Virus record (IMG/VR): IMGVR_UViG_3300030099_002320 | Location: 5,179 to 53,709 of that record | DNA from: a virus | Reading direction: 5' to 3' (one strand) | Length of the DNA: 48,531 bases | In this document: positions 7,885-35,900 of the stretch, in pieces | Layout: every line of letters begins with the position of its first letter | Numbering within the stretch: position 1 is the stretch's first letter | Program-made: the position numbers and the translations under genes | The notes under the pieces: model-generated | The model's database searches: none | What the model was told of the DNA's origin: nothing | The model's input: only the letters and a program-made list of their open reading frames with translations

Positions 7885-9327
7885 TTATGAACTAAACTGT
7901 AATACAGTGTGTGTTTCAGGAAGTTGAATTTCAAGACCTGCTTCTGTAAGAATCATGTCTTTTCTTCCATCAACGTCACGACTTTGAACATTAGTAATAA
8001 TTTGAGTATCTCTTGATACGCCATTACCAACTAATGGTCTGTAAGCTACATTGTTTAGATCAATCATAATTGCTGTATTTTCATACGGCCCTCTAAATAG
8101 AGGTTCCATTACAAGGTTTAAATTACCATATAATGTTGATATTCTAGTTACTAAGTGACCAAATTCACCTTGTACATTTTGAATATCCATACCACTACCA
8201 ACCTGTGAGTTCAACGCCATAGTATTACCTAGGAATGAAGAACCACCAAGTTTGTTGAAGTATGACATAACTTTTCTAGATGCTAGAACAAGTTTCTCTC
8301 CACTGTTTCCAGATTCTGGTGAGAATACATCTTCCATTGCATCAATAAAAGTATCGTATGAAGCTGAACTATAACTAAATGTTTTGACTTTACCAAAACG
8401 TTCAGTGTAAGGTACAATACCATGTGTTCTACGAACTGGACCAGTTGCTGTTGAGTCATCTGTTCCAATACCAAATAACATAGCGTGCTCAAGATCCATC
8501 TTATGTTCCATAAGTTTTTCTTGATATACTCTCATGTATTCGTTGTTCACTCCACGATATCTTGTTGCAAGAGCTGTACCAGAGAATAGAGGTACTGAAG
8601 TCTTAAAGATCTGACAGTATCCTTCTCTGTTGTAGAACTCATCGTGCCAAGATTCTGGATCTTCAGAACCTTCAGCAAAAGCTGAACCAATTACTTGACC
8701 GTCTGCATCTGCTCTAAAAATAAGTTTAGAACCTGAAGCAATTGGTGTAATAGTTCCAGCGTTAGTTGCTGTAGCTCCATTAGAACCAGTTGGTTTATAT
8801 GCTACATAAATAAACTCTAAAGTTAATCTTGCAGCTGCTGCATCTGAACTTAAGTCAGGTGCTGCTGTGATTTTATAATATGCTATTGCAGCAGTTTCAC
8901 TGCCAACTCCAGCATCTGAACCGTTAGCATCGTATTCACATTCGATTGCTACGATTTGATTTTCCAACAAGAAGTTCGGCTGAACTGCTGTTGAAACCTC
9001 TCTACCAAATTTGTCATATAAAACATCTACGTCAAATCCAGCACCTGCAGCAAAATTCCAGTTAGCATCAGAACCTGAATGTGCTGATGTTGTTTTTGCT
9101 ACTTGTACTTGGAAGTTACGTCTTTGATATTGATGTCTTTGCTCTAAGAATTTAAATACAGGGTCGTCTGTAGGCACCTTAGATACGTTTGACAAATATG
9201 TGAAGAAAGGCGATTGTTGAGGAGCTAACTCAGCTACTCTCTCACCAAAGTTGAAGATTCGTCTATCAACATTGATGGAAGTACCCTGAACTGCTTCTCC
9301 TGGTGTCATGCTATATACATTTGCCAT
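7885..9327 (-). CDS. Major capsid protein
   Basis: A 480-residue protein starting at ATG 9327 behind TAAGGAGAG. It follows terminase, portal and scaffold genes in the classic order and is followed by a strong hairpin. The N-terminus has NFGERVAELAPQQSPFFTYL and DPVFKFLEQRHQYQRRN, which I associate with HK97-fold capsid proteins of podovirus- and myovirus-like phages. Codon use is a little less AT-rich than in the neighbours, as expected for a highly expressed gene. An HK97 fold is assumed from family knowledge and cannot be shown from motif alone. Confidence 0.85.
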   Translation of the reverse strand: MANVYSMTPGEAVQGTSINVDRRIFNFGERVAELAPQQSPFFTYLSNVSKVPTDDPVFKFLEQRHQYQRRNFQVQVAKTTSAHSGSDANWNFAAGAGFDVDVLYDKFGREVSTAVQPNFLLENQIVAIECEYDANGSDAGVGSETAAIAYYKITAAPDLSSDAAAARLTLEFIYVAYKPTGSNGATATNAGTITPIASGSKLIFRADADGQVIGSAFAEGSEDPESWHDEFYNREGYCQIFKTSVPLFSGTALATRYRGVNNEYMRVYQEKLMEHKMDLEHAMLFGIGTDDSTATGPVRRTHGIVPYTERFGKVKTFSYSSASYDTFIDAMEDVFSPESGNSGEKLVLASRKVMSYFNKLGGSSFLGNTMALNSQVGSGMDIQNVQGEFGHLVTRISTLYGNLNLVMEPLFRGPYENTAIMIDLNNVAYRPLVGNGVSRDTQIITNVQSRDVDGRKDMILTEAGLEIQLPETHTVLQFSS

Positions 9328-10264: not shown

Positions 10265-12595
10265 CTAACTCTCCATCTCCTCAGGTAGTATATCGAAAAC
10301 ATTTTCTTCTTCCATGTTATCTACTTCCTCAGGTGCAACGGAGTTTATCAGATTTGATTTTGCATCATTAAGTCTAGCTTTATATAAGCTAGCTGCCATA
10401 TCAGCACGATTAGATATTTTATCTAAGTCCCCACTGAATTTTTCCACCTCTAAACGTTTCTTAGCATGTACTTCTTCACGTTCAGCGGTTTGAAGATCTC
10501 CACGAGTCTTCTTTAATTCTTGTTGTAACATCTGTATTTGTTGTGCCATTTGTTGTATTTGTCCAGAACGTTGCATTACTCCTTCAATATCTACAAGTTC
10601 TGTCTTCTTCAATACTTCTGTTTGATCTATTAATCCCATTTGGAACATTTGCATATATGTATTTAATAGTGCCATTCTATTTGTAGGTAATGTAGAGCCA
10701 GATACAACAACTAAATCATATCTTCCTACACCCACATCATGAAACTTAACTACTGTACCATCTTCCATTTCTTTAAATACATTAATCATTTCTTCTTTCT
10801 CTAAACCGTTAGGTTGTATTAAACGTATAACTTTTTCTTCTGTATATATTTGTTGAATCAAAGGTATAGCAACTTTAGCACATTGATTTAAAAATTTTTC
10901 TATATCATCTCTTCTTGATTTAATTCTACGCTGACCAAATTCATCTACTACTAATGTTCCTCTATATGTTGATGGTGCACTTTTACCACTACCCTGCATC
11001 AATTCAAAAATACCAAAGCCGTATTCTAAATCATATTTAGCATCAGCTTCATTTTTATACAGTTCATTTGGTAGTGGGACTGGGCCAGCAACAATCGGTG
11101 CACCTAACTCAGCATCGAACTCAATAACGCTAGTACCAGCTTTACTCCATTCTTGTTCTATCTGATTAAGATCAGCAGAGCCTCTTGGTATTAAAAGTTT
11201 AACGTTAGTACTAGTACTAGCATGAGCTATAATTAATGAACGTATTTTATTTATATATTCTTGTAAAGGTCTATATAACCTAACATCAGATTCTGGATAT
11301 GGATTACGATGATGCACATTCATTAATGGAATAATAGGGTAATCTTCTGTTGGTAGCATTCTTTTGTATAGTAAATGATCTCCAACACTAACAACTAACT
11401 CAATACATGCTTTTTGTATTGCATTAGCATTTATTTGTTCCATACCAATTAATTCTTCTACAGAAACAGGTATTAACGTAGTTGTACTGCCTGGTATACC
11501 ATCTTCATCTTCTCTACCGTTTACCCTCACTGGAGGTTTAGGTATAATTCTACCATCAGGACCTATTTCTGGATCTGGTAATTCAAAATGAAATACTCCA
11601 CCTGTTTCTATTAATATGTCATAAAGTTGAGATACAGACTCATCTTCAAACACAATTACTTCTTCTCCTGTAATTTTTCTTACCTTAATATAACTTTTGC
11701 TTAAATACTTGCTATATTCTGATGGTGTAAACAAAAACTCTCTTTGAGAAAAAGGTTCATAAATATTAAAATAAGGCATAATTGTTTTTGTATAACGTTC
11801 TGTATACTTTCTTTTATTGTGTATTGTAGTATCATCGTCACCAAAAAACATTTGCCCTTCTGTTGCTGCCAGATTTGTTACAGGATAATCATCATCGTTA
11901 TCAGGTTCTGGATTTGATTGCTCTATAATATCCATATAGTCAGGATATACTAACTCTGCATATTCATCTGTCATGTACTTACATACTAAAATATGTGCAG
12001 CATCTCTAGCGTATATATCTTTTGAGTTAGGATCTATGTAAACATCTAAAGGGTTTATTGATTTTAAACAAACTTCTCCTTTACCTAAGTCAGCTTGAGG
12101 ATCTTGAAACACCTGCATAACTCCCATACCACCAACATAATAATCATCTATAATTCTTTTCAACTCTTCATCACCACTAGATGTCTGCCATATGTATTGA
12201 AATAAATCAGAAAATACTTTTGCAGTATCTCTATCTGAATCTTCTCTAGCTGTTGCTCTAAATTGTGGTGAATTGTAGGTAAGTAAAGATTTTGCTGTTT
12301 CTACAATAGGATGAATACGATTTACTACGATTGGTGCTTGACCACGAGACTCTAGTACTTCTTGTTCTTCGTTAGTCCATTGAGCTCCAGCTCTAAACTC
12401 TAATGATTCTTGAAATTTTTGTGCCCAAAGTTCTCTTGAACTTTTATATTCTGTAAATATCTCTCTTGTTAACTCTACTTCTTCAGGAATAGTATATGCA
12501 TCTATTCGTCCATTATCAAAACCAAAAACAGTTTTATTGTCTTTCTTGTTTTGTTTTCTTGTCCTTGATGTCTTCTTTTGTATTGTTTTTGGCAA
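10265..12595 (-). CDS. Portal protein (TTG start)
   Basis: A 776-residue protein that starts at TTG 12595, supported by GAGGT just upstream. After a basic head come ELWAQKFQESLEFRAGAQWT, EEQEVLESRGQAPIVVNRIH and SLLTYNSPQFRATAREDSD, typical of P22-type portals. The C-terminal section is a long coiled coil (about residues 660-740: QIQMLQQELKKTRGDLQTAE) that could form a barrel or lie inside the head. It forms the dodecameric DNA entry channel and docks the terminase encoded just upstream. Length fits large podovirus portals. Confidence 0.88.
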   Translation of the reverse strand: MPKTIQKKTSRTRKQNKKDNKTVFGFDNGRIDAYTIPEEVELTREIFTEYKSSRELWAQKFQESLEFRAGAQWTNEEQEVLESRGQAPIVVNRIHPIVETAKSLLTYNSPQFRATAREDSDRDTAKVFSDLFQYIWQTSSGDEELKRIIDDYYVGGMGVMQVFQDPQADLGKGEVCLKSINPLDVYIDPNSKDIYARDAAHILVCKYMTDEYAELVYPDYMDIIEQSNPEPDNDDDYPVTNLAATEGQMFFGDDDTTIHNKRKYTERYTKTIMPYFNIYEPFSQREFLFTPSEYSKYLSKSYIKVRKITGEEVIVFEDESVSQLYDILIETGGVFHFELPDPEIGPDGRIIPKPPVRVNGREDEDGIPGSTTTLIPVSVEELIGMEQINANAIQKACIELVVSVGDHLLYKRMLPTEDYPIIPLMNVHHRNPYPESDVRLYRPLQEYINKIRSLIIAHASTSTNVKLLIPRGSADLNQIEQEWSKAGTSVIEFDAELGAPIVAGPVPLPNELYKNEADAKYDLEYGFGIFELMQGSGKSAPSTYRGTLVVDEFGQRRIKSRRDDIEKFLNQCAKVAIPLIQQIYTEEKVIRLIQPNGLEKEEMINVFKEMEDGTVVKFHDVGVGRYDLVVVSGSTLPTNRMALLNTYMQMFQMGLIDQTEVLKKTELVDIEGVMQRSGQIQQMAQQIQMLQQELKKTRGDLQTAEREEVHAKKRLEVEKFSGDLDKISNRADMAASLYKARLNDAKSNLINSVAPEEVDNMEEENVFDILPEEMES

Positions 12596-16586: not shown

Positions 16587-16620
16587 AGTGCGGTGAACGG
16601 GATTACTTAATAGCCGCACT
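16587..16620 (+). terminator. Intercistronic stem-loop
   Basis: AGTGCGG (16587-16593) pairs perfectly with CCGCACT (16614-16620), with a loop near 20 bases. GGCTA at 16580 and TAGCC at 16611 offer an alternative pairing. There is no U-tract, so it is more likely an attenuator or RNA-processing site than a full terminator. Confidence 0.45.
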
Positions 16621-16888: not shown

Positions 16889-17285
16889 CAATGAAGAGAT
16901 ATACGATAGAGCGGTGAAATCATTTAATGAAGTAATTAATGAAAAGGTAATAGCCGCTACAGAATCGAAAGAGTGGGCAAAGTTTAAGTTTGCTACACTT
17001 ACAAAACAAAAACTTAGGGAAGGTGCAATTAAACACGAGGCACAAATCCCTATAACTCTTGTAGAATGTATTAAAGTTAACAGAGACAATTTACAAGAAG
17101 CAATAGAAGAAGGTATTGATATGCCAATATATGTTGAAGCAGAGTCAGTTTTACAGACTCAACTTGATAGCAATACAACATATGAATACCTTAAAATAGC
17201 AAAAGAGTTCATGTATAAGGCAGTGTTTTATTTATTGTTAGCCTTATTTCATGACTCAAAACCGAAAGGAAATGAAAATGAGTAA
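16881..17285 (+). CDS. Hypothetical protein upstream of the ubiquitin-like gene
   Basis: A 134-residue protein. ATG 16881 is preferred over ATG 16878 because the AAGGAG at 16870-16875 is then 5 bases away. The N-terminal half is helical (IYDRAVKSFNEVINEKVIAA), followed by QIPITLVECIKVNRDNLQEA and a hydrophobic helix MYKAVFYLLLALFHD near the end. Its last codons overlap the ubiquitin-like gene by 8 bp, so the two are translationally linked. I do not recognise it, but the coupling makes it a candidate accessory factor of the conjugation system. Confidence 0.75.
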   Translation: MFNNEEIYDRAVKSFNEVINEKVIAATESKEWAKFKFATLTKQKLREGAIKHEAQIPITLVECIKVNRDNLQEAIEEGIDMPIYVEAESVLQTQLDSNTTYEYLKIAKEFMYKAVFYLLLALFHDSKPKGNENE

Positions 17286-17586
17286 CTCAACACAGATAGA
17301 AGCGATTCTATATAATGTAAATAACACTGGCTTTGTAGAAGCAAGAGATGAAAGAGCACTTGCGTGCAGAAATGTGCAAGAGTTTGTGGATTATCTTAGA
17401 GACGCAAGTCCTAGTTTGTATGAACAAATTAACTTGTCTAATACAAAGATCAAAGTAAACTGGGAAGACAATGCAGTTTCTGGTGAATCACCATCTGCTA
17501 ATCTTCAGACTTTACTGACCAGAACTAGTGCTACTGACGGTAGATGTATTATTGCATTTAACGAGCACACGGTTAAAGGTGGATAA
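17278..17586 (+). CDS. Ubiquitin-like protein with C-terminal Gly-Gly
   Basis: A 102-residue protein. ATG 17278 is chosen over an in-frame ATG at 17251 because GAAAGGAAATGAAA sits just upstream. The predicted order is strand (QIEAILYNV, 6-14), strand (GFVEARD, 18-24), helix (NVQEFVDYLRDA, 32-43), strand (KIKVNWED, 57-64), a helical or loop part, and strand (RCIIAFNEHTV, 89-99). That is the beta-grasp order of ThiS and ubiquitin. It ends KGG at residue 102 and then a double stop, so no maturation is needed before activation. The E2-like, JAMM and E1-like genes follow in the same operon. It was named from topology, Gly-Gly end and neighbours rather than sequence family; the PRTRC-C and ThiS groups are the nearest in layout. 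Confidence 0.68.
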   Translation: MSNSTQIEAILYNVNNTGFVEARDERALACRNVQEFVDYLRDASPSLYEQINLSNTKIKVNWEDNAVSGESPSANLQTLLTRTSATDGRCIIAFNEHTVKGG

Positions 17587-17597
17587 TAAAAACAACA

Positions 17598-17621
17598 GAG
17601 GGGCAGTTTCGGCTGTCCCTC
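17598..17621 (+). terminator. Strong hairpin after the ubiquitin-like gene
   Basis: GAGGGGCAG (17598-17606) pairs with CTGTCCCTC (17613-17621) including one G-U pair, around a 6-base TTTCGG loop. No U-tract follows. It may block 3' decay or partly terminate, giving more ubiquitin-like protein than the enzymes downstream. Confidence 0.6.
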
Positions 17622-17643
17622 ATAACTTTAAGGAGAGAATAAT

Positions 17644-17871
17644 ATGGCTGAGAAAGTGAAAACATGCGGTATTAATAAAGAAAAGGGTTATCTATATTAC
17701 TTGAACATACATGGTGATGTGTATCGTAAAACTATAGATAAGAGAAGTGAGAAAGTTCTTGATACAAATATATTGCGTGAAAGTGGATACTTATACTTTA
17801 TCGATAGAGAAGGTGATGTATCAAGAGCACCAATGGTAAGAAAGGAGTATATAAATGTGGAAAGAAGTTGA
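17644..17871 (+). CDS. Small two-repeat protein (GYLY...GDV..R)
   Basis: A 75-residue protein, ATG 17644 behind AAGGAGAG. It contains two copies of one unit: GYLYYLNIHGDVYRKTI (about 15-31) and GYLYFIDREGDVSRAPM (about 48-64). Two beta hairpins with a Gly-Asp turn are likely. A similar single unit (KGYLYFIDKxGDVSRAxM) recurs, as I recall, in short uncharacterised archaeal and bacterial proteins. Between the ubiquitin-like and E2-like genes and overlapping the latter by 17 bp, it may be an adaptor or substrate of the pathway. Its function is unknown. Confidence 0.75.
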   Translation: MAEKVKTCGINKEKGYLYYLNIHGDVYRKTIDKRSEKVLDTNILRESGYLYFIDREGDVSRAPMVRKEYINVERS

Positions 17872-19849
17872 ATGGGATGACTTAGAAATGGACATATCTG
17901 ATGTTTCATCTGAAATGATTATAGGTCCAAAGAATATAGTGATGAGAAAGATTAACGACTTCAACAGATACTTTACTCAAAACACTTATGTTAGTGGCAA
18001 TAGAACAATGGTAGAACCATTACCACCACTAGCATTTACAAGAACATATAGGTGGAAACCTGGATATATGAAAATTGTTAATGAAGTAATATCTGAAAGA
18101 TTGTTGCAACTACATAAAGGTGGTAGCTTAGAAACTAAATTCAATAGAATGGATAGAGCTCAACATCAACTCAGACAACTAAGAGAAAGACTCTTAGATA
18201 TTGATACTCTGATGAGAGAGTTGAGAGTGAGAAAAGCAACAACTGATCAAGATGTAGAAGCAGCAACAGAAAATATGCAAAATGTTATGGATATATTTCA
18301 GAACAAAACAAAAGAAGCAGAGTCTTACTTTTCTTTGAGAGATGATATGGAAATATCAATGATATTTAAATATTGGGAACCAAATACTTCTCATTTAGAT
18401 GAGGATGAACAGTTGTCAATGTCTCAGATAAACTTACTAAAGTTTCTTACTGGACATTTATCTATGGCTATACATATCAAAGATCCTGAAATGGAAATAT
18501 TGCATAGTAGTTTTGGACAGCAAAGAAAAGTAAAATCGTATGGTAAGATTAAACTTATGGACGATATATTTGTTCTTTATGAAATACCATTTTATGCAAT
18601 GTTTCAAGCACTATACACTTCTAAATTTCATGATTTGAAAGCAAGCGATATCAGCAACAATTATCAATATAGAAATATGATTGACGGATATCTCAGAGGA
18701 CAAAATCTGAATAGATCTTACGAAAGTCATGGTATGACAAGATATTCTGGTAGACCTACTGAACTATCAGGTTGGTGTGGAAGTGATAGTCCTGGACAAA
18801 GAACATTCCCATACATTAGTAAAGGTCATAGTTATGAAACAGACACTAATAGTTTTTCAGCTTTCGGTGTTAATCATAATGCAGTAAGCACTTGTTTTGG
18901 TAATATGGATCAACATATTCGAGATGCATTTGTAAGACTAGATTTCTTATCTATTATGGATATATTATCACATTGGATTAGATATGATATACACGATACA
19001 AGACCTCTAAACAACTTACAAGAAAGTTTCTACACTTTACCAAAAAATCGTATTAGATCTGATTTTATAAAAGATTATACGGATTTTGATATAGGTAGAA
19101 TGCATTCAAAATTGTTTAATGATTTTGATTGTGATAGACATTTCAGAAATTATTGGTCTCAACCAACTCACGAATATATTGGTCAAGTAGATCAGTATGG
19201 TACGAGAAAATATCTAGAGTCTGGTTATGCTATGTTGGGTAAAGGTTGGTTGCAAGAACCTGAATCACCAGTAGTTTCAGTTGGTAATTCACAAGAACAA
19301 TATCGTGCAATATTTGGTTGGGACTTTAGTCGTCCTAACTGGATACCTAACAGTCTTATCATAATGGAACTTCAAAGTAGACTTGCTACTTATGGATTTC
19401 TAAATGATGATACATATGTTGAGGATACCAAGAACATCAAAGATGTTCATATAACTGCTTATCAAGAATACACATATGCTTTGGTAGATGCAGTTAAAAG
19501 AATATTAGATGAAGATCAATGTATTACTATTGGTCATGGATTATACAAACATATGGAAAATCTGGTAGAGTTTGTTGACAATATTGAATGGACTGAATTA
19601 GAGGAAATGAATCAGAAAGTGAAAAAGGAACTAGAAAAAGAAATCAATATGGTGCAAAGTAGAATAAACAGTAGAATAGACAATGATCTTCCATTTCAAG
19701 AGGATGAAGATCCATATGAATTAGATTATGATGATGATGAATATGAATACGAGTTAAACAGAGTAGATTTTCCTGGATTATTACCAGGTGAATCACCAAT
19801 ACAATATGAACGTAGAATATTAAACGAAAGAGAGGATAGTAATGAGTAA
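17855..19849 (+). CDS. Large protein with E2-like conjugating-enzyme motif
   Basis: A 664-residue protein starting at ATG 17855 behind AAAGGAGTAT. Residues about 95-150 are a coiled coil (RAQHQLRQLRERLLDID). The centre has VNHNAVSTCFGNMDQHIRDA with Cys347, His341 and Gly349, followed by a helix FLSIMDILSHWIRYD and a proline near 375. This matches the layout of prokaryotic E2-like domains, where a conserved H-x-x-V...C-x-G precedes the C-terminal helices, and Cys347 would carry the thioester. The C-terminal 40 residues are strongly acidic (DYDDDEYEYELNRVD). It is far longer than a normal E2 (about 150-200), so it may also choose substrates. The stop overlaps the JAMM gene by 8 bp. The E2 call rests on one motif and neighbours; a structural protein is an alternative. 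Confidence 0.55.
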   Translation: MWKEVEWDDLEMDISDVSSEMIIGPKNIVMRKINDFNRYFTQNTYVSGNRTMVEPLPPLAFTRTYRWKPGYMKIVNEVISERLLQLHKGGSLETKFNRMDRAQHQLRQLRERLLDIDTLMRELRVRKATTDQDVEAATENMQNVMDIFQNKTKEAESYFSLRDDMEISMIFKYWEPNTSHLDEDEQLSMSQINLLKFLTGHLSMAIHIKDPEMEILHSSFGQQRKVKSYGKIKLMDDIFVLYEIPFYAMFQALYTSKFHDLKASDISNNYQYRNMIDGYLRGQNLNRSYESHGMTRYSGRPTELSGWCGSDSPGQRTFPYISKGHSYETDTNSFSAFGVNHNAVSTCFGNMDQHIRDAFVRLDFLSIMDILSHWIRYDIHDTRPLNNLQESFYTLPKNRIRSDFIKDYTDFDIGRMHSKLFNDFDCDRHFRNYWSQPTHEYIGQVDQYGTRKYLESGYAMLGKGWLQEPESPVVSVGNSQEQYRAIFGWDFSRPNWIPNSLIIMELQSRLATYGFLNDDTYVEDTKNIKDVHITAYQEYTYALVDAVKRILDEDQCITIGHGLYKHMENLVEFVDNIEWTELEEMNQKVKKELEKEINMVQSRINSRIDNDLPFQEDEDPYELDYDDDEYEYELNRVDFPGLLPGESPIQYERRILNEREDSNE

Positions 19850-20765
19850 GTTCATAATGAATCAGAAAGACTGGGATACTATACAAAATTATTCCAGATA
19901 TGCTTATGATGAGCACAAGTCAGAAATTGGTGGATATATGCTTGTTAAAGAAATTGATAACAAGTTTGTATTTACTAATCCAGTAATACTTGAACAAGAA
20001 ATTACTGCTAGTAATACAGAGATAACAGCAGACGCTGTTAGTGATTATACAGTTAAAATGGAAGTGCAACACGGTAAAGAGGAATATTGGTTGTGCTGGT
20101 GGCATAGTCATCACACTATGGATGTTTTCTGGTCCCCAACTGACCATACAGCTATTAATCAACATAAAACAATAACAGGTAAATATACATTTAATCTTGT
20201 TGTTAATCTTAAAGAAGAACATATTCTTAGAGTATGTGATTGGAGAACTGGTACACAAACTGATCTTCAAATGGAAATAGGTGATAAAACTGAAATACCA
20301 GATTATATTATCAATGAAGTTGAAGAGAAATGTTCAAAACCTAAACCTGTAACATACAAATATCAGACTACGAAAACAAATAATGCATTTAGTAGTATGT
20401 ATAATGGTGGATATGTTAATCAGATGAATATATGGGCTTCGGATAAAACAGATGAAGAAAGAGTAGATGTTGAAGCAAAGTTAGATACTATCTTACAAGA
20501 ATATCTTAATGATTCTGATTATCCAAAATACAGAAAAGCTGTAGGAAATCTAAATAGAAAACTTGGTAGAGATCAAAGTGAGCTTAGAGTTCTTATAGTA
20601 GATAAAGAACAACTTGTGCAATGTGTTCATTTGTTAATGGCAGATGAATATATTTATGCAAAAGGTGGTGATAAACCAGATATACAAACATCAATAGATT
20701 TTGAAAGGTCTTTTGATATGACTGGTAATGTAAATATAATTAATGCGAAAGGAGAAGTGAAATGA
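19842..20765 (+). CDS. JAMM/Mov34-family metallopeptidase (deconjugase)
   Basis: A 307-residue protein, ATG 19842, with an AGAGGAT site. The JAMM zinc signature is complete: Glu28 in KSEIGGYM, then H88-S-H90 and, after exactly seven residues, S98-P-T-D101. The catalytic domain covers about the first 145 residues; the remaining 160 are of unknown type and may bind substrate. JAMM enzymes cleave the isopeptide bond after Gly-Gly of ubiquitin-like proteins. Because the ubiquitin-like protein here already ends in Gly-Gly, the likely job is removing it from targets. The gene overlaps the E2-like gene by 8 bp and the E1 gene by 4 bp (ATGA). Lambda K is a JAMM tail protein, but this copy is in the early block. 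Confidence 0.9.
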   Translation: MSKFIMNQKDWDTIQNYSRYAYDEHKSEIGGYMLVKEIDNKFVFTNPVILEQEITASNTEITADAVSDYTVKMEVQHGKEEYWLCWWHSHHTMDVFWSPTDHTAINQHKTITGKYTFNLVVNLKEEHILRVCDWRTGTQTDLQMEIGDKTEIPDYIINEVEEKCSKPKPVTYKYQTTKTNNAFSSMYNGGYVNQMNIWASDKTDEERVDVEAKLDTILQEYLNDSDYPKYRKAVGNLNRKLGRDQSELRVLIVDKEQLVQCVHLLMADEYIYAKGGDKPDIQTSIDFERSFDMTGNVNIINAKGEVK

Positions 20766-21400
20766 ATGAGAGATATTCTGGGTTAGTTAATAACTTTGAT
20801 GAATATGCTTATCATTTCTTGGGTTGCGGTGCTATTGGTAGTGCCGCAGCTACAACTATGGTAAGAATGGGTGCTAATATGGTCCATTTGTATGATATGG
20901 ATCGTGTTGAAAGCCCTAATATTGGTGTATCAATATATGATACTAATGATATTAATAAACCAAAAGTAGAAGCATTGAAAGATAAACTCTTAGCAATCAA
21001 TCCAAATGCCTATATTAATACTCATAATGGTGAATTTGAAAACATATTACAAGAACCTCGTAATGTAGTTATTCTTGGATTTGATTCTATGAGTTCAAGA
21101 TTAGATGCAGTAAAGAATATTCTAAACTTAGAAAAACCTGAGATACTTATTGACGGTAGAATGGGTGCAGAATATTATCAGCAATATACATTTGAACAAC
21201 CAACTTTGAAAGAGTATATGAAAACTTGGTATACAGATGATATAGCAGATGATGTTCCATGTAATCAAAAAGCAACTAGTTATTGTAGTAATATGACTGG
21301 TAGTTTGATATGCAACAATGTAAAAAAGATACTGAAAGATGAACCTTATATGAAAAATTTCTCTTTCAACTTTGTTACTTGTTCATTAGATTTACATTAG
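20762..21400 (+). CDS. ThiF/E1-like ubiquitin-activating enzyme
   Basis: A 212-residue protein, ATG 20762, behind GAAAGGAG. The nucleotide-binding motif G21-C-G23-A-I-G26 is followed by D45-M-D47 and E-S-P-N53, then K66/K68 (NKPKVEALKDKL). A later D108 with R113 (GFDSMSSRLDAV) completes the ThiF pattern. Cys167 (DDVPCNQ) and Cys175 (SYCSNM) are candidates for the catalytic cysteine that takes the activated Gly-Gly. The usual 'NLNRQ' segment is replaced by NIGVSIYD, so the ATP-site Arg is not in its normal place. It adenylates the ubiquitin-like protein and passes it to the E2-like partner. Shorter than typical ThiF (about 240-250), but it ends cleanly. Confidence 0.87.
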   Translation: MNERYSGLVNNFDEYAYHFLGCGAIGSAAATTMVRMGANMVHLYDMDRVESPNIGVSIYDTNDINKPKVEALKDKLLAINPNAYINTHNGEFENILQEPRNVVILGFDSMSSRLDAVKNILNLEKPEILIDGRMGAEYYQQYTFEQPTLKEYMKTWYTDDIADDVPCNQKATSYCSNMTGSLICNNVKKILKDEPYMKNFSFNFVTCSLDLH

Positions 21401-21413
21401 TAATATATTAACT

Positions 21414-21470
21414 GGTGTGGGGGCTATATACCTCTCTATATCCACTATCAATCTCATTGGTCCCCGCACT
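21414..21470 (+). terminator. Stem-loop after the E1-like gene
   Basis: GTGTGGGG (21415-21422) pairs with CCCCGCAC (21462-21469) with one G-U, and flanking G-U pairs can extend it; an inner ATATA/TATAT hairpin lies between. It ends the cluster of conjugation genes and may be a terminator or processing site. The next gene has its own AAAGGAAAGG, so it need not depend on this transcript. Confidence 0.5.
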
Positions 21471-26920: not shown

Positions 26921-29900
26921 TTAATCTTCTGGGATTGTATCAAGTTCTTCTTCTATAGCAGCTTGTTGTTCCATTTGATTACGTCTAATTGAATGTAATC
27001 TTCTTAATGGCAATCCAGTCATAAAATCTACTGCCATAGCAGGACTATCATACGTCTTTTTTAAGTCTCTGAATAGTCTACCAAAAGGAAAGTATGTAGC
27101 AACTTGATATTTATAAAAGTTTTCCATATCACCATTTAATATAGCAGTGATAGGAGACAATACAAATCTAGCAATAGGTGGTGTTACGATCTGTAATGGT
27201 GCTAAATATTGAGAAGGATATGAACTAAAGAATGCACGTTCTCTTTCTTTTTCATCACCAAACAATAATGCAGATGTATCTTGTAACCAGTTCATAGGTG
27301 GTGATAATGCATATTCAAAAATACTAGCAATAAATATATTACCAAGTGCTAATGCCATTAAATCTAGAGTTAGTTGTCTTTCAAATTTCTTTTGAGACAA
27401 TGTATCTCTTTTCCAACCTTCAAGCTTAGCATCTTTTGTGATCTGTATACGTCTACCAATACTATTCCATGCATATGGTTGGAATCTGGTTAATACACGA
27501 CCTAAAGATGTATTAGCAAAGTTAGGCCTGAATGTAGCCTGATACATAAACTGAGATGCTTTAACACCTTTCATAGCAAAGTCTGTAATAACTGGACTAT
27601 TAAATGGTATTCCATCAAAAATTTTCTCACCTAAAATAGTTCTCATATTAATATAGTTAGCTAAAAATGCGGTACCACGTAGTTTACGTTCCGACCATTT
27701 CATTGGTAAAGCACCAGCTTCAACAACAGGTATTTCTACTTTTAAATATTCTGCTGTTTCTCTTAAAGTTCTTTTAGATTCAATGTCGTGCAGCTCTTTA
27801 GAAGTTATTCTGCCTTCTTTATAAGATTTATTCATACGTGATATAAATTCAATCCAAAACTTTTTTACACCCTGTCTACCAAAGTTTTTATCAAGAGATA
27901 CAAGATCTAAGAACATCTGATCATATACCCCAATAGTTTCCATCCATTCAAAAATTCTTTTCATACTATTAATCTGAACCTTTTGTACTCTACCATCTGG
28001 TCCTACTACAGAAAACTCTGCTTTACCTCCACCAAATAAGTTCTGTATCATCCACTCAGAATCATTTGCTTTCCTAAATGCTGACCAACCTGTATCAGAT
28101 ATCGTATTAACAGTACCACCATATAAGTTAGTAATAGCTGTTTTAGGGTGTGATAATAATGATAATAGCTCAAACTTACCTTCTAGGTCACTCAACTGTC
28201 TTACACGTTGCATAATAGCAAATTGTCTATCTTTAGAATTAGTAGGTAAAGGACCAAATAATTTACCACCAAAGGCTCTGTCTAGCTTATTAAAGAATCT
28301 AACTGCTACTTCATCACTTGTTAGATGATACAATGATCCATACTTACCAGTAGAGTTTACTCTTTCTACTAACTTATTAGCTCTTGAAAGTCTTAATGCT
28401 TTAATTTCTGCTTTAGTCTTTTCAACATTTCTATTATTTCTTTTAAATATCAACATCTGTTCATGGGGCATAACATCAATAGCTGCATCAAAATCTTTAA
28501 TCAAATCTTTTTTATATCTACCAGTACCTTCTTTAGGTCCAGTCAAACCATCTTTTATATATTGTCTTAAGAACTCTTGGTCTTTTTTTTGTATACCATG
28601 CAAGTTCAATGCACGATATGTACTTAAACCCATCATATTTGTAAAAGAATCTCTCATATAGTTTGACCAATCAGCTGCCCATTCTTGACCTTTATGAACA
28701 TTATCAAAGTTTCTTAACAATATTTCAGATCTTAATCCAGCAAGATTTGTAAACCACATCTTAAACAATCCACTTGTATAAAAACGTACAGCATCAATAT
28801 CTTTTTGATAAAAAGGCATAAACGTTTCACCTCTATTTTTAGTCATGCTAGCTGCATAATCACCAATAAATCCATCAAGATTTGGTCTTTCCATTAAATC
28901 AGTTATTTGTCTTTCAGCAGCTGCTTGACCATTAGTTATAGAAACACCTATCATTCTTTCAAAACCTGCTTTTAAATCTCTTTTATATGTAAGAGCTGCC
29001 TCCATATGACTTACACCATCTATGTCCATCTTTGCTTGTAGGTAAGTTGGTAATAACTTTTTATCTTGTAATGCTCTGTTAAACTTAACTTCAACATTAT
29101 CTTTAATCCACTCTGCAAGTTTTTCTTGATTAGCCTGATATCTACCATGTCCTAACCTAGGAAAATAACCTTCTACAATATCACCAACATAATATTTAGT
29201 ATACTCACCTTTAGTTTTTGCTAACTCTTTTAATACTGTCTGTTTTACAATGTAAGCTTGTGAACCTTTTTGAGATACTTTACCCTTAGGTTTACTTACA
29301 TTAATGCCTTTTGGTTCTAATAAAAATTGTATTCTATCTCTCAACTCCATATGGAATTTGATAAATCTATAATCATTAACACTCATAAGATATTTACCAA
29401 TATATTCTCTGTCAGTTACATTTCTGTTCATCATATCTTTATATAACAATGACACCCTATTTTCATTTATAATGCCTGTTTCTTGCAAGAAAGTTTGTTC
29501 AAGGTTACGTGAGTCTAGGTCTTTTGTTTGTGAGCCTTTAAACACCCCTTCTACTACAAACGCACCATCTTTATTAGTGCCATATGAAAGTCCTTTAACT
29601 TTTTGTAGATCTACTAATGTTTTAGATAACTGTTTTACATTTGTTTTTATGTATGTATTCTTAATACTTTGTAATAATTTAGATGTATCAGATGCAATTC
29701 TATCTACAAATTGTTGAGGTTTTATAGGTGTTAATGTACCATCTATATTACCTTGTGGTATATTAAATACAACTCCACTATCTTCTAGTTTTTTAATTGC
29801 TGATTGAGTATCTAAATAAGATTCTACAATGTAAGTTCTTTCCCCCTCACCACCAACTTGCGTAGGAAACCTTGGTTTACCATCAGGTCCTGGATTGTAT

Positions 29901-32900
29901 TCTATTTTATTTACAGCAGCTTGAAACAACAAGTCTCTATGTTCTGCCATTAATTTATCAGTGGTATTAAAATAATAATATACACCATCAACTTTATCTT
30001 GTTGTAGTTTATAAATAATCTTTTGATATGTATCAAATTTATCTATAGCTACTCTACCTGCTTCAAGAGTAGTAACAGGTATAGATATTCTTTTTTTAGA
30101 TATTTTTCCATTTTTATCTAATGTAGGTCTAGCATTAGTCTCTATCTCAAATCTATCTAAATTAAATAAATATTTAGCAGCCTGTCCATATCCTAACGTC
30201 TGATCAATAGCACTAGGCTTTCTAACAGCTTCTCTTTGTTTTTGAAATGCTGTCTTTTTACTTAACAACATTTCTAAACTTTTATTAAACATAACAAGAT
30301 CTTCTGTGGTCATAGTCTCTAATCTTCTTTGAACACCAGTTTGATTGTATGTTAATTCCATAAACATTTCTTCTAATCTCATTATAGTGTCTGGATTTTG
30401 AAACAATATTTCTCTAAGTTTTTTAATTTCTTTACTAGCTTTGTCTGTTAAGATAGCATTCTTATCAGATTCTACTCTAAATAAATATTCAAACTGAGGT
30501 ATAAGTTCTCCTATATATCCATCTAAATTTTCTTGTTTAGTTTTTAAGCTAGGAGCATCTTCTATTATTGTATCAACTATCTTATCTTTATTACCAAAGA
30601 AATTAAATTTTACTCTATCTTCTACTATTTCAAAATTATTTTGATATACAGTATTTTCTGATAAAGATCTATCAAATGCTTCAATACTAAATGTTGTTTT
30701 AAACTGCTCTTCAAACTTAATTGCATCATTATCTATAAGTTTTTGAGATAGTTTTTCTCCAACTCTTTGACCATTAGACTCTAACATTTGACGCATATCA
30801 GAAAAGAAACTTTGTCTACCTCTATCACTTATAGCTATATAGCTAGATATATTATCTACGTTAGGTCTATATTTTGTTAATGCTAAATTTTTAAAATACA
30901 AAGCTCTTGAATAGTCTTCATTATTTAATCTATCACCATCTTTTATAAACTTACTAATATTAGAATTTTCTTTTTCTATATCTAACAATGCAAGTTTTTG
31001 TATATCAGTAGTAGGTCCTTTCAATGGACTTGATAATAACCATGTTTCTATAATAGGTTCTATATCTTTATAGATAGTAGGATACTTATCTTTAAAGTTT
31101 AATTTTATTCTTCTAATTAATGTATTTACATCATTACCAGATAATTCTAAATGTTTTTTGCCAGGAAAACTTAAGTTATTTCCTCTATCAAATAAAGATT
31201 TTATCATAAATGTTTGATCTATAATATCTTTTACAATCATTTCAGCAGTTTCAGATCCATATTCATTAGGTTTTTTCTGTTGTATATCTCTAATAAATTG
31301 TTCAGACATTTTTAAACTTCTAAATATACCTTGGTATTCAAAAACTTTTTGATGCAATAATCCTGGTTCATTAATAATTAAATTTAATGTATCCTTAGCT
31401 TCTAGTTGAGAGTTATAATTATCAGTTAAACCAAACCTTTGCAACAATGGATGATCAACTACAAGTTCTCTATATCTTAATATTAATGCTTTTGCTACAT
31501 CAGTAGCAGCAAAGTCTTTAAATTCTTTAGCATAAAATTTAAAAGGATTAATAACAAAATTAGGATAATCAACTAAAGCTTTTGCTATATGGTAATAGAA
31601 TCTATTTTGTGAGCCAAAAGTTTTTAAATAATTTTCTCCAATAGTAGTAGATATTGTTGGATCTGTTACATTTTTATTTCTATATCCGACAGAATGTATA
31701 TCTTTAAATGACTTTAATTCTGTAATTCTATTAAAAGCATACTCGTATTCATTGCTATATCTTTCAAACATATCAAATTCTTTGCCTTGAACTTCAGGCT
31801 TACCTGTAATTTCAAAATGTTTAGACCAAAAAGTATCTAATATTTTATCGTAGGTTGCTACTTTTGTAAAGTTTGCAGAGTCTGCCATTAGATTAATACC
31901 TCTATATGTATCTAATTGTAACTCTCTCACAGATGTTTTTAACTTTAAACCAATAGGAAACATTGTACCTTTAATAAATGTAGTCAGTTTCATTTCTGGT
32001 ATTCCCATAGCGGTATCTTGTTGAATAATATCAGCTACCATTTGCATACGATTAAATCCAGATACTACATACTCAATATTTTTTTTACCAATACGTGCAT
32101 TTCTAGCTACATCAATTCTTAGATTACTATTCATTAAATCTTCTAATGCTCTAGTACCATTTGCTCCACCTTCAGATACTTTAATATCTGGATATTGTTC
32201 AACTAAACTTTGCCATTCTTTACCTTGAGGAGTTTCAAATGATAATGCATCTTCATTGTTTTTACCTGCTAATTCATTCTCATATTTCTTAAATACTTTC
32301 TTAAAAGATTCAGGCATATTCTGATACATAAATACACTGTCAGCATCTTTATCTGCACCACCTAAGTAATAATCTGTTTTAGATGTAGTGACAACATTCA
32401 TACCTCTTCTACCTGTAAATCCAACTACCTCTACAACACGTACACCACCATTACCACTATTAGGATTACGCATAATTAAAAATGTAAGAGCATCTCTTAA
32501 TTGATTTATTTCTGTACCAAATTGTTGTATATCATTTTTTATAACGTTTAATCTATCAATAGCTTTTCCTAAAGTTATCTGATCATTTCCAACCATTATA
32601 GGCATATCTCTAAAAGTTTCTCCTAATCTTATTTGATTATCACGTAATCCAGTAGCAGTTTCTGGATCAGCAGGTCCTAACTTACCTTCTACGGCATTAT
32701 TTACTCTAGGTTTTACTACTCTTTTATGACGATATTCTGTTAAACTTCTATTAATAAAAGATAAATATGGAGGATAAATTACAGATCCAATATCATATCC
32801 AGTTTTAAATAATGCATTTGGCACATCATATTTAACAAGTTGTTGTAAAGTAACATCTATTAAATCAGTAGCTTCTTGTATATTTTGATGATAATCTTCA

Positions 32901-35900
32901 CGACCTCTTTCTAATATTTTTCTTAATAATTTTAAACCAAAAGGAGTTTTTATTTGATCAGACTCTAATACTCTATTAATTGCACCTAATGATATTGTAT
33001 CTATATTATACTCTAAACTTAAATCTTGTTTTGCAAAAGCTTGTTCAAAGGCTTTGGTTTTTTCAGGATTACCTACAACAGAAGATTCAATCATTCTATC
33101 ATAATCAGCTACAAAGTTATCATAGTCTTTACCTATTTGCTCTTTGTTGAGTTTATCAAACATTTGTTTAGCAATTAATAAACCATTATAAAGTTTGTTA
33201 GGGTTTTCATAAACACCATAATTCAAATATAATTCTTCTGGTTTTATACCAAATGATTCTATGTTATCTTTTATAGAGTATTCTTTAGTATTATTATTCC
33301 ATTCTAGTTTATGTTTTTTAATACCTAACATTGTTTTTGTTGCAGATTCAGCAGTAATAATATCTATATTATTAGCTTTCATAAACTTATCCATTGCAGT
33401 AGTAGCTCTAAATGTACCAGTTTTAAATAATATAGTACCAGTTCCTTCTCTAGGAGCTTTAAATCCTACAAGTTTTAAAAATCCACTATCTGGATCTCTA
33501 TAATTAGCATCAGAAATAGCATCAAATATTTCTTTTCTTATATATACAACAGCATCTATAGCACTCTTAGAAGGCTCTCCATCTACTTTAAATGTAGAAG
33601 GTATGTCTTCTATCTGTACAACTTTCCACTCTCCATTATCATCTAGTTTACCTTTGTAATCTACAGACTCCAATTTTACTTCTTGACCTTGAGCTAAACT
33701 ATTGTATTTATTAAATTTTTGTACAGTTTCAAATAAAGGATTCTGTCTAAACTTTTTTAATCCATCATTTAATTTGTCATAAGTTATTGGTTCATTAGCT
33801 TTTATATAGCCAGCATCTAACAAAGAATAATAAATATTACTTGCATAATCTTCTGCTTGCACATCTGTTAATTTATCCTGTGTAAATAATTTATTATCTC
33901 TTAATAATTGTTTTTGTAAAGCAGTGGTAATTTCTGTGTCTGTAAATGGACGTTTGTGTAATATAATCTCTCCAGTATCTTTAGCACCACCATATATATA
34001 ATATCCTTGTTCTCTAGCAGAAGCATTTAAATCATTTAACATAGCGTCTTTAAGAAAATATTCAAACTTTTGATATAATACTTTTTTATTTTTACCTGAA
34101 CCTATTGTAATATCATTGTCAGAAAAATCTAAAATTTTCTTTCTACCAAATATAGGTACTTCTACTAAACCTCCGTCCTTTATTAATAGACCAAACTTAT
34201 GAAGTTTTTCTTGTATATAAGCTTGTCTAACAATAATACGTACTCTTCTGCCATTTCCTATATGTTCATTGTATTTACTTTTTTGTCTTGGAGCACCAAC
34301 TGGTTTATCTCCTATATCTCTCATAGGTTGTCTTGTAACAACTGGTTGACCACTACTAAAATCTATCTCATAATCTTCTCTTATTTGTACATTTTTTTTA
34401 AGTTTTAAATATGAACCTAATAACGATTCATTAACTTCTTTGAAAAAAACTTTTCCATCTTTTATTTGCTCAGGATATTTTTCTTTTAAAGCCTCTTTAA
34501 ATTTAGGTAAATTGTACTCAGTCTCTACAGCAAGTCTACCTATATCAACTAACAACTGGTCTTGACTTGTAGATATATTCATAGACCTAAGTTTTTCTAC
34601 TAAAGTTTTTATCTGTGGATTACTAATAGCTGGTTCATTTAAATCCTTAGAAGTTAAATTTACTAGGTCAGCTAAATCCATTCCTAAGTTTTCTTTTATT
34701 TCTCTCTTAAATGCTTCTAATCCACTTTTATCTTTATCACTTATTACTGCTATATTCTCAACACTTTCTAATGCTTCTGCTATTTTAGTTTGTTCTACTT
34801 CAGCTTTAATTTGCTCCCACTGTTCACGAGTAGGTCTTGTAATACCTTTTTCATCTAATATAGCTTTTACTTCAGGTATAACAACTTTAGTAATAGAAAC
34901 ATCTCTGTCAAATACCTGTTGTTGTATTAATGGTATTCTACTCTTTACATAGTCTCTATCAAATTTAGGTAATGCTAAAAACTCTGGATCAGCTTCAAGT
35001 TCTCTTGTTAAAGTTTGTTCTGTTTTTTCTAATGAACGAAAACGTTCTGAGTTTTTATTTAGATACTTAATTCTTTGTATAAATCCTGCATCTCTAGCAG
35101 TAGCACCAAAGAAAGCACCTAATAAATATTCATATACCTGTTCTGGTACAGGTAAATTTTGTGCAGTAGCCATACCACCTTGTAATCCAGAACCAATAGC
35201 ACCTTTAATAGCCATATTGATTCCTTCTAAAGTTCTATCTTCTGCTGCTAACTCATCAGCTTTTCTACGAATAATATTTTCACCAAGTTTTCTTGTCTTA
35301 GGATTAGCATATATACGTGCTACATTTACATAATTACCAATAGTTCCAAACATACCACCAGCTATAGCACCATGTATAGCTGCATCTGCTGCACCTTTAG
35401 CACCTTCTGTCCAACTACTTACACCCATAGCTATACCTAAGTGTGCAGCCTGCTCTCCTATATCTCTAAACCTTGGACTTTTTAATATACCCTTAGCAAG
35501 AAAGCCGTCCTTTAATACACCTGCATCTCCAAAAGATGCCTTAGCCTGCTCTATAACTTTATCAGCTACCTTCATTGGTATTGATTGTAAAGCAAAGGTA
35601 TCTGTACCTATTTCTTTTCTAAATGCAGGAGGAGCCGCTTCACCAGCAGCACGTAAGCCTTTTGTTACACCACCAGCTGCTTTTAAACTAGCACGTTTAG
35701 CTACAGCTACTGGTATATACTGGCCCATAGATAGTGCACTTGCAATAACATCAGGAGCAAAACCAACAAGGTGTCCTACTTTATTAGCTATAGATTCTAT
35801 AGATGTATCAGGTTCATCTGACCAACCAAGAGTTGTAAAACCTTCAACAAGTCCAGATACAAATTGATTAGCAGTACTTATAAGATTAGCATCAGCAACC

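Follow-up and report, generated by a model that had tools for sequence, protein, structure and literature searches.

A candidate ubiquitin-like conjugation cassette in the replication modules of marine, Crassvirales and Flavobacterium phages

The stretch of DNA analyzed here (the window, 48,531 nucleotides) comes from a 53.7-kb virus record and carries, at positions 17278-21400, four genes for a ubiquitin-like protein (Ubl), an E2-like protein, a JAB/JAMM metalloprotease and an E1-like adenylating enzyme. All four are encoded on the plus strand, while most structural genes lie on the opposite strand. The features of the cassette are as follows:

17278..17586, plus strand: Ubl, 102 aa, predicted ubiquitin/ThiS-like beta-grasp protein with C-terminal ...VKGG
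17598..17621, plus strand: hairpin between the Ubl and E2-like genes, GAGGGGCAG..CTGTCCCTC
17644..17871, plus strand: 75-aa open reading frame (ORF) between the Ubl and E2-like genes
17855..19849, plus strand: E2-like protein, 664 aa, putative catalytic Cys347
19842..20765, plus strand: JAB/JAMM metalloprotease, 307 aa, JAMM core at 20103-20144
20762..21400, plus strand: E1-like adenylating enzyme (ThiF), 212 aa, putative catalytic Cys167

The original prediction described one operon of overlapping coding genes. Overlaps of 4-17 bp are present (upstream ORF and Ubl, 8 bp; 75-aa ORF and E2, 17 bp; E2 and JAB, 8 bp; JAB and E1, 4 bp), but the overlap is not continuous, as a 57-nt gap holding the strong hairpin at 17598-17621 separates the Ubl gene from the 75-aa ORF. 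That ORF has no family match, is missing at the corresponding site in the near relatives L002-L004, and is probably not part of the cassette; it contains two repeats, GYLYYLNIHGDVYRK and GYLYFIDREGDVSRA. A hairpin with differing stem sequences also lies between the Ubl and E2-like genes of most relatives, and comparable strong hairpins occupy intergenic gaps of the window near 16590-16615 and 21415-21470. The Ubl-E2 hairpin is no classical terminator because it has no U-run, and the intergenic hairpins may be processing or stability elements. Elsewhere in the window, the minus strand encodes an SU10-type major capsid protein (PF17236, E 8e-32) and a protein with portal matches to P22-like portals (7888-9327 and 10268-12592), together with a 3056-aa ORF (26921-36091) that is presumably a giant virion protein.

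The Ubl gene starts with an ATG at 17278 and runs for 102 codons to a terminal ...TVKGG at 17583, followed by a TAA stop at 17584-17586; the Gly-Gly codons occupy 17578-17583. Comparison of the window Ubl with Pfam, PHROG, NCBIfam and PADLOC gave no convincing direct match. Among its homologues, 9 of 29 matched the ThiS family (best E 1.9e-5), and the Ubl profile matched MoaD at an E-value of 0.01. The AlphaFold2 model (pLDDT 74.8, pTM 0.71) has its elements in the order strand-strand-helix-strand-strand, and all 50 listed PDB matches were ubiquitin-fold or ubiquitin-containing proteins, each individually weak (best E 0.04). By family, fold and profile the protein is predicted to be a beta-grasp modifier, in agreement with the earlier description of a 102-residue beta-grasp protein ending in Gly-Gly; structure prediction had been named beforehand as a test capable of overturning that description, and it returned a beta-grasp. 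Alignment of the 29 homologues left the final Gly-Gly as the sole invariant columns (29/29), followed by tails of 0 to 117 residues: none in the window and L004, Y in L019, DVE in L020, DAR, 10-21 residues, and 117 residues in L071. Variable tails of this kind need a protease, and the variability is the pattern expected if the JAB protein trims a precursor to expose Gly-Gly. In L071 (2288-2878) the Ubl is joined after KTGG to a 117-aa domain, an arrangement resembling eukaryotic ubiquitin fusions.

The two enzymes at the downstream end of the cassette were the most readily assigned. The JAB protein matched Prok-JAB (PF14464) with an E-value of 3.3e-5 at 24.2 bits, just missing the 25-bit cut-off, and its profile matched PRTRC-A (E 5e-6). 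The JAMM signature noted originally was recovered as E28...H88-S-H90-x7-S98-x2-D101, with all five residues invariant in 22 sequences, and the assignment to the JAB family is clear by these sequence criteria. The E1, likewise noted as a ThiF-type GxGxxG...DxD...D enzyme, matched ThiF (PF00899) with an E-value of 1.4e-19 and reads G21-x-G23-x2-G26...D45-x-D47...K68...D108...C167 (GCGAIGS and DMD; Cys167 codon at 21260-21262); the nucleotide-binding motif, D45, D47, N53, K68, D108, C167 and C175 are invariant in 65 E1 sequences, and we regard its membership of the ThiF family, as judged from sequence, as certain. In the marine clade the Arg of the NxxR motif, the usual ATP contact in E1s, gives way to Val56 (V in 98%), and in the aligned Crassvirales and Flavobacterium E1s to Gly, whereas PRTRC E1s keep R. 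This loss would bear on E1 activity, while superfamily membership rests on the whole-domain score. The dN/dS values against L002 were 0.10 for the E1, 0.17 for the Ubl, 0.30 for the E2-like protein and 0.33 for the JAB; therefore, all four proteins are under selection as proteins. Against L004 the values were 0.69 (Ubl), 0.57 (E2), 0.11 (E1) and 0.30 (JAB), a much stronger divergence of the Ubl and E2-like protein than of the other two.

The nearest family matches (ThiS/MoaD for the Ubl, ThiF for the E1) and the location of the cassette among nucleic-acid genes would also suit a sulfur relay, in which the Ubl is a ThiS/MoaD-type carrier that is thiocarboxylated by the E1 and feeds nucleotide or nucleic-acid thiolation. 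We consider such a relay improbable. Sulfur-transfer E1s have a C-terminal rhodanese that this E1 lacks, and among the window proteins scanned there was neither a rhodanese nor a cysteine desulfurase or thiolase. The constant partners are a JAMM protease and a Cys protein of E2-like type, as in PRTRC. The corresponding parts for these last two proteins, with the JAB merely maturing the Ubl and the 664-aa protein serving as the sulfur acceptor enzyme, appear to us just as improbable.

The assignment of the 664-aa protein as an E2 is likely from sequence and model and is the weakest link in our reading of the cassette. Comparison with Pfam, PHROG, NCBIfam and PADLOC gave no convincing match and no E2 family match, and a Prok-E2_D search over 289 genomes gave no match, its controls being equally silent, which makes that search uninformative. 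Cys347 (codon TGT, 18893-18895, within S-T-C-F-G-N) and Pro384 are the only invariant columns in 41 E2-like sequences whose mean identity is 17%. The conserved motif is HP[YF]I...CxG (P319, C347, G349), in which C347 is kept in 47/47 sequences, P319 in 46/47 and the His in 31/47; most relatives have HPYI, and the window phage, with Phe for His, has a degenerate FPYI at Pro319. Of the H-x-x-V...C-x-G motif first proposed, the Cys stands and the His of NHNAV does not; this His is not conserved among relatives, which rules it out as an E2 active-site His. The AlphaFold2 model (pLDDT 77, pTM 0.70) comprises a helix (189-199), four strands (201-208, 212-218, 226-233 and 238-245), Cys347 and two further helices (349-360 and 364-374), suggesting a UBC-like region at about 165-375 with the UBC element order plus an insertion ahead of the active site. 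Foldseek of the full-length model against PDB gave no match, and its matches in BFVD were limited to six viral homologues; the proposal that Cys347 sits in an E2-like site thus gains the element order of the model and fails to gain a PDB fold match. Against PRTRC-B the E2-like profile scored 18.9, compared with a mean of 11.1 and a maximum of 15.6 for 60 shuffled decoys, in an alignment that covers just the short Cys motif (P-values 0.02-0.1). Against the crAss E2-like family it scored 21.5 (decoy maximum 17.8), aligned over the strands and not the Cys. Beyond the E2 region, a conserved C-x(4)-C-x(5)-C cluster, probably metal-binding, is found in many relatives (for example L087, 3104-4384) and is mostly lost in the window clade.

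SAMP and Urm1 systems provide a precedent for an E1 that works without an E2. The absence of a PDB match for the E2 fold and the fast divergence of the 664-aa protein (33% identity to L004, compared with 69% for the E1) would fit an arrangement of this kind, in which the E1 alone drives conjugation, the JAB removes the Ubl, and the 664-aa protein serves as substrate, adaptor or regulator. We judge this unlikely, given that all 41 sequences keep Cys347, within an HP[YF]I..CxG context like that of E2s and PRTRC-B, that the model of the protein runs helix, four strands, Cys, helix as UBC folds do, and that PRTRC has an E2-type protein at the equivalent position in the gene order.

To place the cassette among other viruses, IMG/VR was searched with the window E1, giving 4 close loci, and with an E1 profile, giving 354 encoding stretches. 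The best 80 of these 354 were annotated by iterated profiles and reduced to 44 loci with distinct E2 sequences. All 44 non-redundant loci with an E2 have the order E2-JAB-E1 (44/44). Where there is enough upstream sequence, nearly every locus also has a gene for a small K/R/M-x-GG-terminated protein ahead of the E2 gene; none was seen before the E2 gene of L044 and L056. A related gene order elsewhere, the lack of which had been put forward as grounds for abandoning the prediction, was thus found in many phages. The ThiF and JAB Pfam E-values, together with a gene order that recurs in dozens of phages, make the four-part set more than a chance assembly. When 84,980 genomes of bacteria and archaea were searched with strict patterns, no close E1 relative appeared, only two distant ThiF-like matches. 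Phage records searched by tblastn with the 664-aa protein and with the JAB gave no match.

The same kind of search with the E1 was more productive. It matched crAss001 gp76 along with further Crassvirales, as well as Flavobacterium phages, at E-values down to 9e-20, and tblastn with the E1 of FpV4 returned 78 records. The Crassvirales carriers (Asinivirinae) include crAss001 (gp79-gp76) and DAC15, and the Flavobacterium phages include FpV4. Cassettes in crAss001 and FpV4 have the Ubl-E2-JAB-E1 order of the window and likewise lie in the replication region. In crAss001 the genes are:

gp79: Ubl (KSG, then a long extension)
gp78: CxG protein with HSH upstream
gp77: JAB, annotated as 'metalloprotease domain'
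gp76: E1, annotated as 'thiamine biosynthesis protein'

The marine and crAss/Flavobacterium Ubl profiles matched each other with a score of 33.5 (decoy maximum 11.7). The two groups differ in that the crAss/Flavobacterium Ubl has KSG and a long C-terminal extension where the window Ubl ends in GG, in that their E2-like proteins are about 390-444 aa with YxHSH...CxG compared with 664 aa in the window, and in that their E1s are about 26-29% identical to the window E1. An E1 tree of 33 sequences, whose root is not known, set the marine phages, together with those of the crAss/Flavobacterium group, apart from the remaining E1s by a branch with support 98/96, with PRTRC E1s in a group of their own (100/98) and MoeB/ThiF elsewhere. 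In phage cr106_1 (L008, 3722-4925) an HNH endonuclease gene lies between a Ubl ending in KSGKF and its apparent C-terminal extension, leaving a nearly mature Ubl. In Crassvirales and Flavobacterium phages a further protein is encoded directly after the E1 (L005, 8693-9505, crAss001 gp75; L006, 8609-9697). It may be a fifth component of their cassettes and was not seen in the marine phages.

The surroundings of the cassette point to replication. A helicase-primase gene lies in the downstream neighborhood of 33/44 loci. Genes close by encode an SSB-like protein and small nuclease-like proteins, joined in some subsets by Erf- and Sak4-like genes (the latter names read from the sequences). The crAss001 cassette has DnaB helicase/primase on one side and UDG, exonuclease and ribonucleotide reductase on the other. 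Replication-type 'middle' genes of crAss001 are transcribed 10-30 min post infection, at a time of genome-wide inhibition of host transcription (PMC8375218). We infer from position that gp75-gp79 share this middle timing. The window cassette, with its place in a replication module, is probably also expressed as middle rather than early, which fits the position better than the early-expressed pathway originally envisaged. Phage lineages whose genomes otherwise differ share the set, which suggests that its role is a core one and not a strain-specific counter-measure. The fast divergence of the Ubl and E2-like proteins would suit changing targets.

In our assessment the best explanation, and a reasonably probable one, is that the cassette forms a Ubl conjugation pathway specific to phages and expressed alongside the replication genes. 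Any residues after the Ubl Gly-Gly would be trimmed by the JAB, the window Ubl being already mature. The C-terminal Gly would then be adenylated by the E1 with ATP and loaded as a thioester, probably on Cys167, before being handed to Cys347 of the E2-like protein, whose large size would go with recognition of the target as well; no E3 was identified. The Ubl would finally be joined to lysines of target proteins, from which the JAB could remove it. The invariant residues match the needs of this mechanism, namely the Gly-Gly of the Ubl, the Cys of the E2-like protein, the JAMM E/H/H/S/D, and the nucleotide site and Cys of the E1. The parts, residues, order, co-conservation and family are established at the level of sequence comparison; E2 chemistry, conjugation, its direction and its targets are what we infer from them. 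The most likely role would be to modify proteins located at phage DNA while the phage replicates and takes over the cell. Tagging of defense proteins and exclusion of superinfecting phages, the roles put forward originally, are hypothetical. Host or defense proteins have about an even chance of being the targets, slightly likelier than phage replication or recombination proteins, which we would name only tentatively. The fuller proposition, that a complete and reversible Ubl cascade with its own E1 clade is long-standing and widely shared in the replication modules of distant phages and modifies host or phage proteins covalently, we hold to be evenly poised between right and wrong. Because a four-gene set resembling a small ubiquitin-type tagging system is found in a marine phage, in hundreds of its relatives and, in a distant form, in the human-gut phage crAss001, phages probably tag proteins in infected cells.

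The set is not unique to this phage; related cassettes occur in sequenced cultured phages under the annotations 'thiamine biosynthesis protein' and 'metalloprotease domain'. Cassette genes in Crassvirales and Flavobacterium phages are annotated merely as ThiF, metalloprotease or hypothetical, and these versions of the cassette are unrecognised in annotations. A search of openly licensed full texts gave no paper in which a Ubl/E1/E2/JAB cassette is connected with crAss-like or other phages, and ubiquitin is nowhere mentioned in Yutin 2021, the Crassvirales review 2023 or the crAss001 persistence paper of 2021. The four-gene Ubl set is real, widespread and, in the searchable literature, undescribed for phages, with descriptions found for bacteria and plasmids only. 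If the reading is true, ubiquitylation-like chemistry would extend beyond bacterial immunity to phages, in a prominent human-gut phage group, and phage takeover or replication would gain a post-translational layer; the reading would also bear on the movement of Ubl systems among replicons and cause 'thiamine biosynthesis protein ThiF' and 'metalloprotease' annotations to be re-read in dozens of phage genomes. The phage Ubl pathway is directly testable because crAss001, DAC15 and FpV4 are culturable.

Comparison with known systems separates the cassette from each of them to a different degree. Phage examples in the survey of Iyer et al. 2006 were lambda-type tail proteins only, with phage-borne JAB and Ubl domains in lambda K (JAB) and I (Ubl) (PMC1779556). 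These are tail assembly genes without E1 or E2, whereas the phage cassette lies within replication genes on the strand opposite to the structural genes, and the earlier distinction from the lambda K/I tail type is upheld. A lambda-type tail function is ruled out by position and gene content.

Type II CBASS shares E1 and JAB (Cap3) parts with the cassette, and the phage E1 profile matched Cap2 at about 1e-7 to 1e-8. Cap2 is a fused E1 and E2, with the CD-NTase C terminus serving in place of a Ubl; the phage E1, in contrast, is a stand-alone 212-aa protein, and no CD-NTase was found at the cassette. Among the matches listed by PADLOC for the four cassette proteins there were only JAB and generic E1-E2 models. 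Bil operons comprise Ubl, E1, E2 and JAB parts and act in bacterial defense, whereas the phage cassette sits in phage replication modules; no Bil model was among the matches listed for the four window proteins (for the E1, the best 25 of 32), and BilD gave a single weak match, to the crAss001 E1. Host anti-phage systems do use E1/E2/JAB/Ubl parts, and the phage E1 matches PADLOC E1-E2 models at 1e-13, so the parts might be anti-defense decoys that imitate the host's Bil/CBASS components and disrupt their action, without conjugation of their own. This is very unlikely, as are its conceivable modes of JAB stripping host conjugates or Ubl competing for host E1/E2, because a decoy would need neither all four parts nor conservation of every catalytic residue. 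The gene order is, moreover, uniform in two distant phage groups, and there is no specific kinship to Cap2 or Bil past the shared E1 fold.

The closest counterpart to the conjugation pathway we favor is found on plasmids. Iyer et al. 2006 (PMC1779556) described, as type 6d, operons of bacteria in which Ubl, E2, JAB and E1 are encoded separately, and this type appears to be the system now annotated as PRTRC on plasmids and ICE-like elements. Of ten regions sampled around PRTRC-B on plasmids, nine were annotated, and the usual order was ParB-E-C-F-B-A-ThiF, that is, Ubl-F-E2-JAB-E1 after ParB-E. PRTRC resembles the phage cassette in giving the Ubl, E2-like, JAB and E1 proteins a gene each, in an order that matches apart from the extra F, in a Ubl ending in Gly, in an E2-type CxG motif and in having replication or partition genes nearby. 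Phage profiles matched PRTRC for the E1 (E 3e-10) as well as the JAB, whereas the phage Ubl profile scored no better than decoys against PRTRC-C; of the family relationships originally suggested for profile searches, those to ThiS and JAB were recovered and those to PRTRC-C and E2 families were not. The phage Ubl ends in GG and the PRTRC Ubl in KG, the phage E2-like protein has 664 aa compared with about 240 aa in PRTRC, and the phage E1s form a clade apart from PRTRC E1s, the carriers being phages on one side and plasmids on the other. No ParB, E or F genes were recognised in the neighborhood of the window cassette, and their absence, with a Ubl unrelated to PRTRC-C, rules out PRTRC membership. 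By analogy, the phage cassette would work as PRTRC would, without belonging to it.
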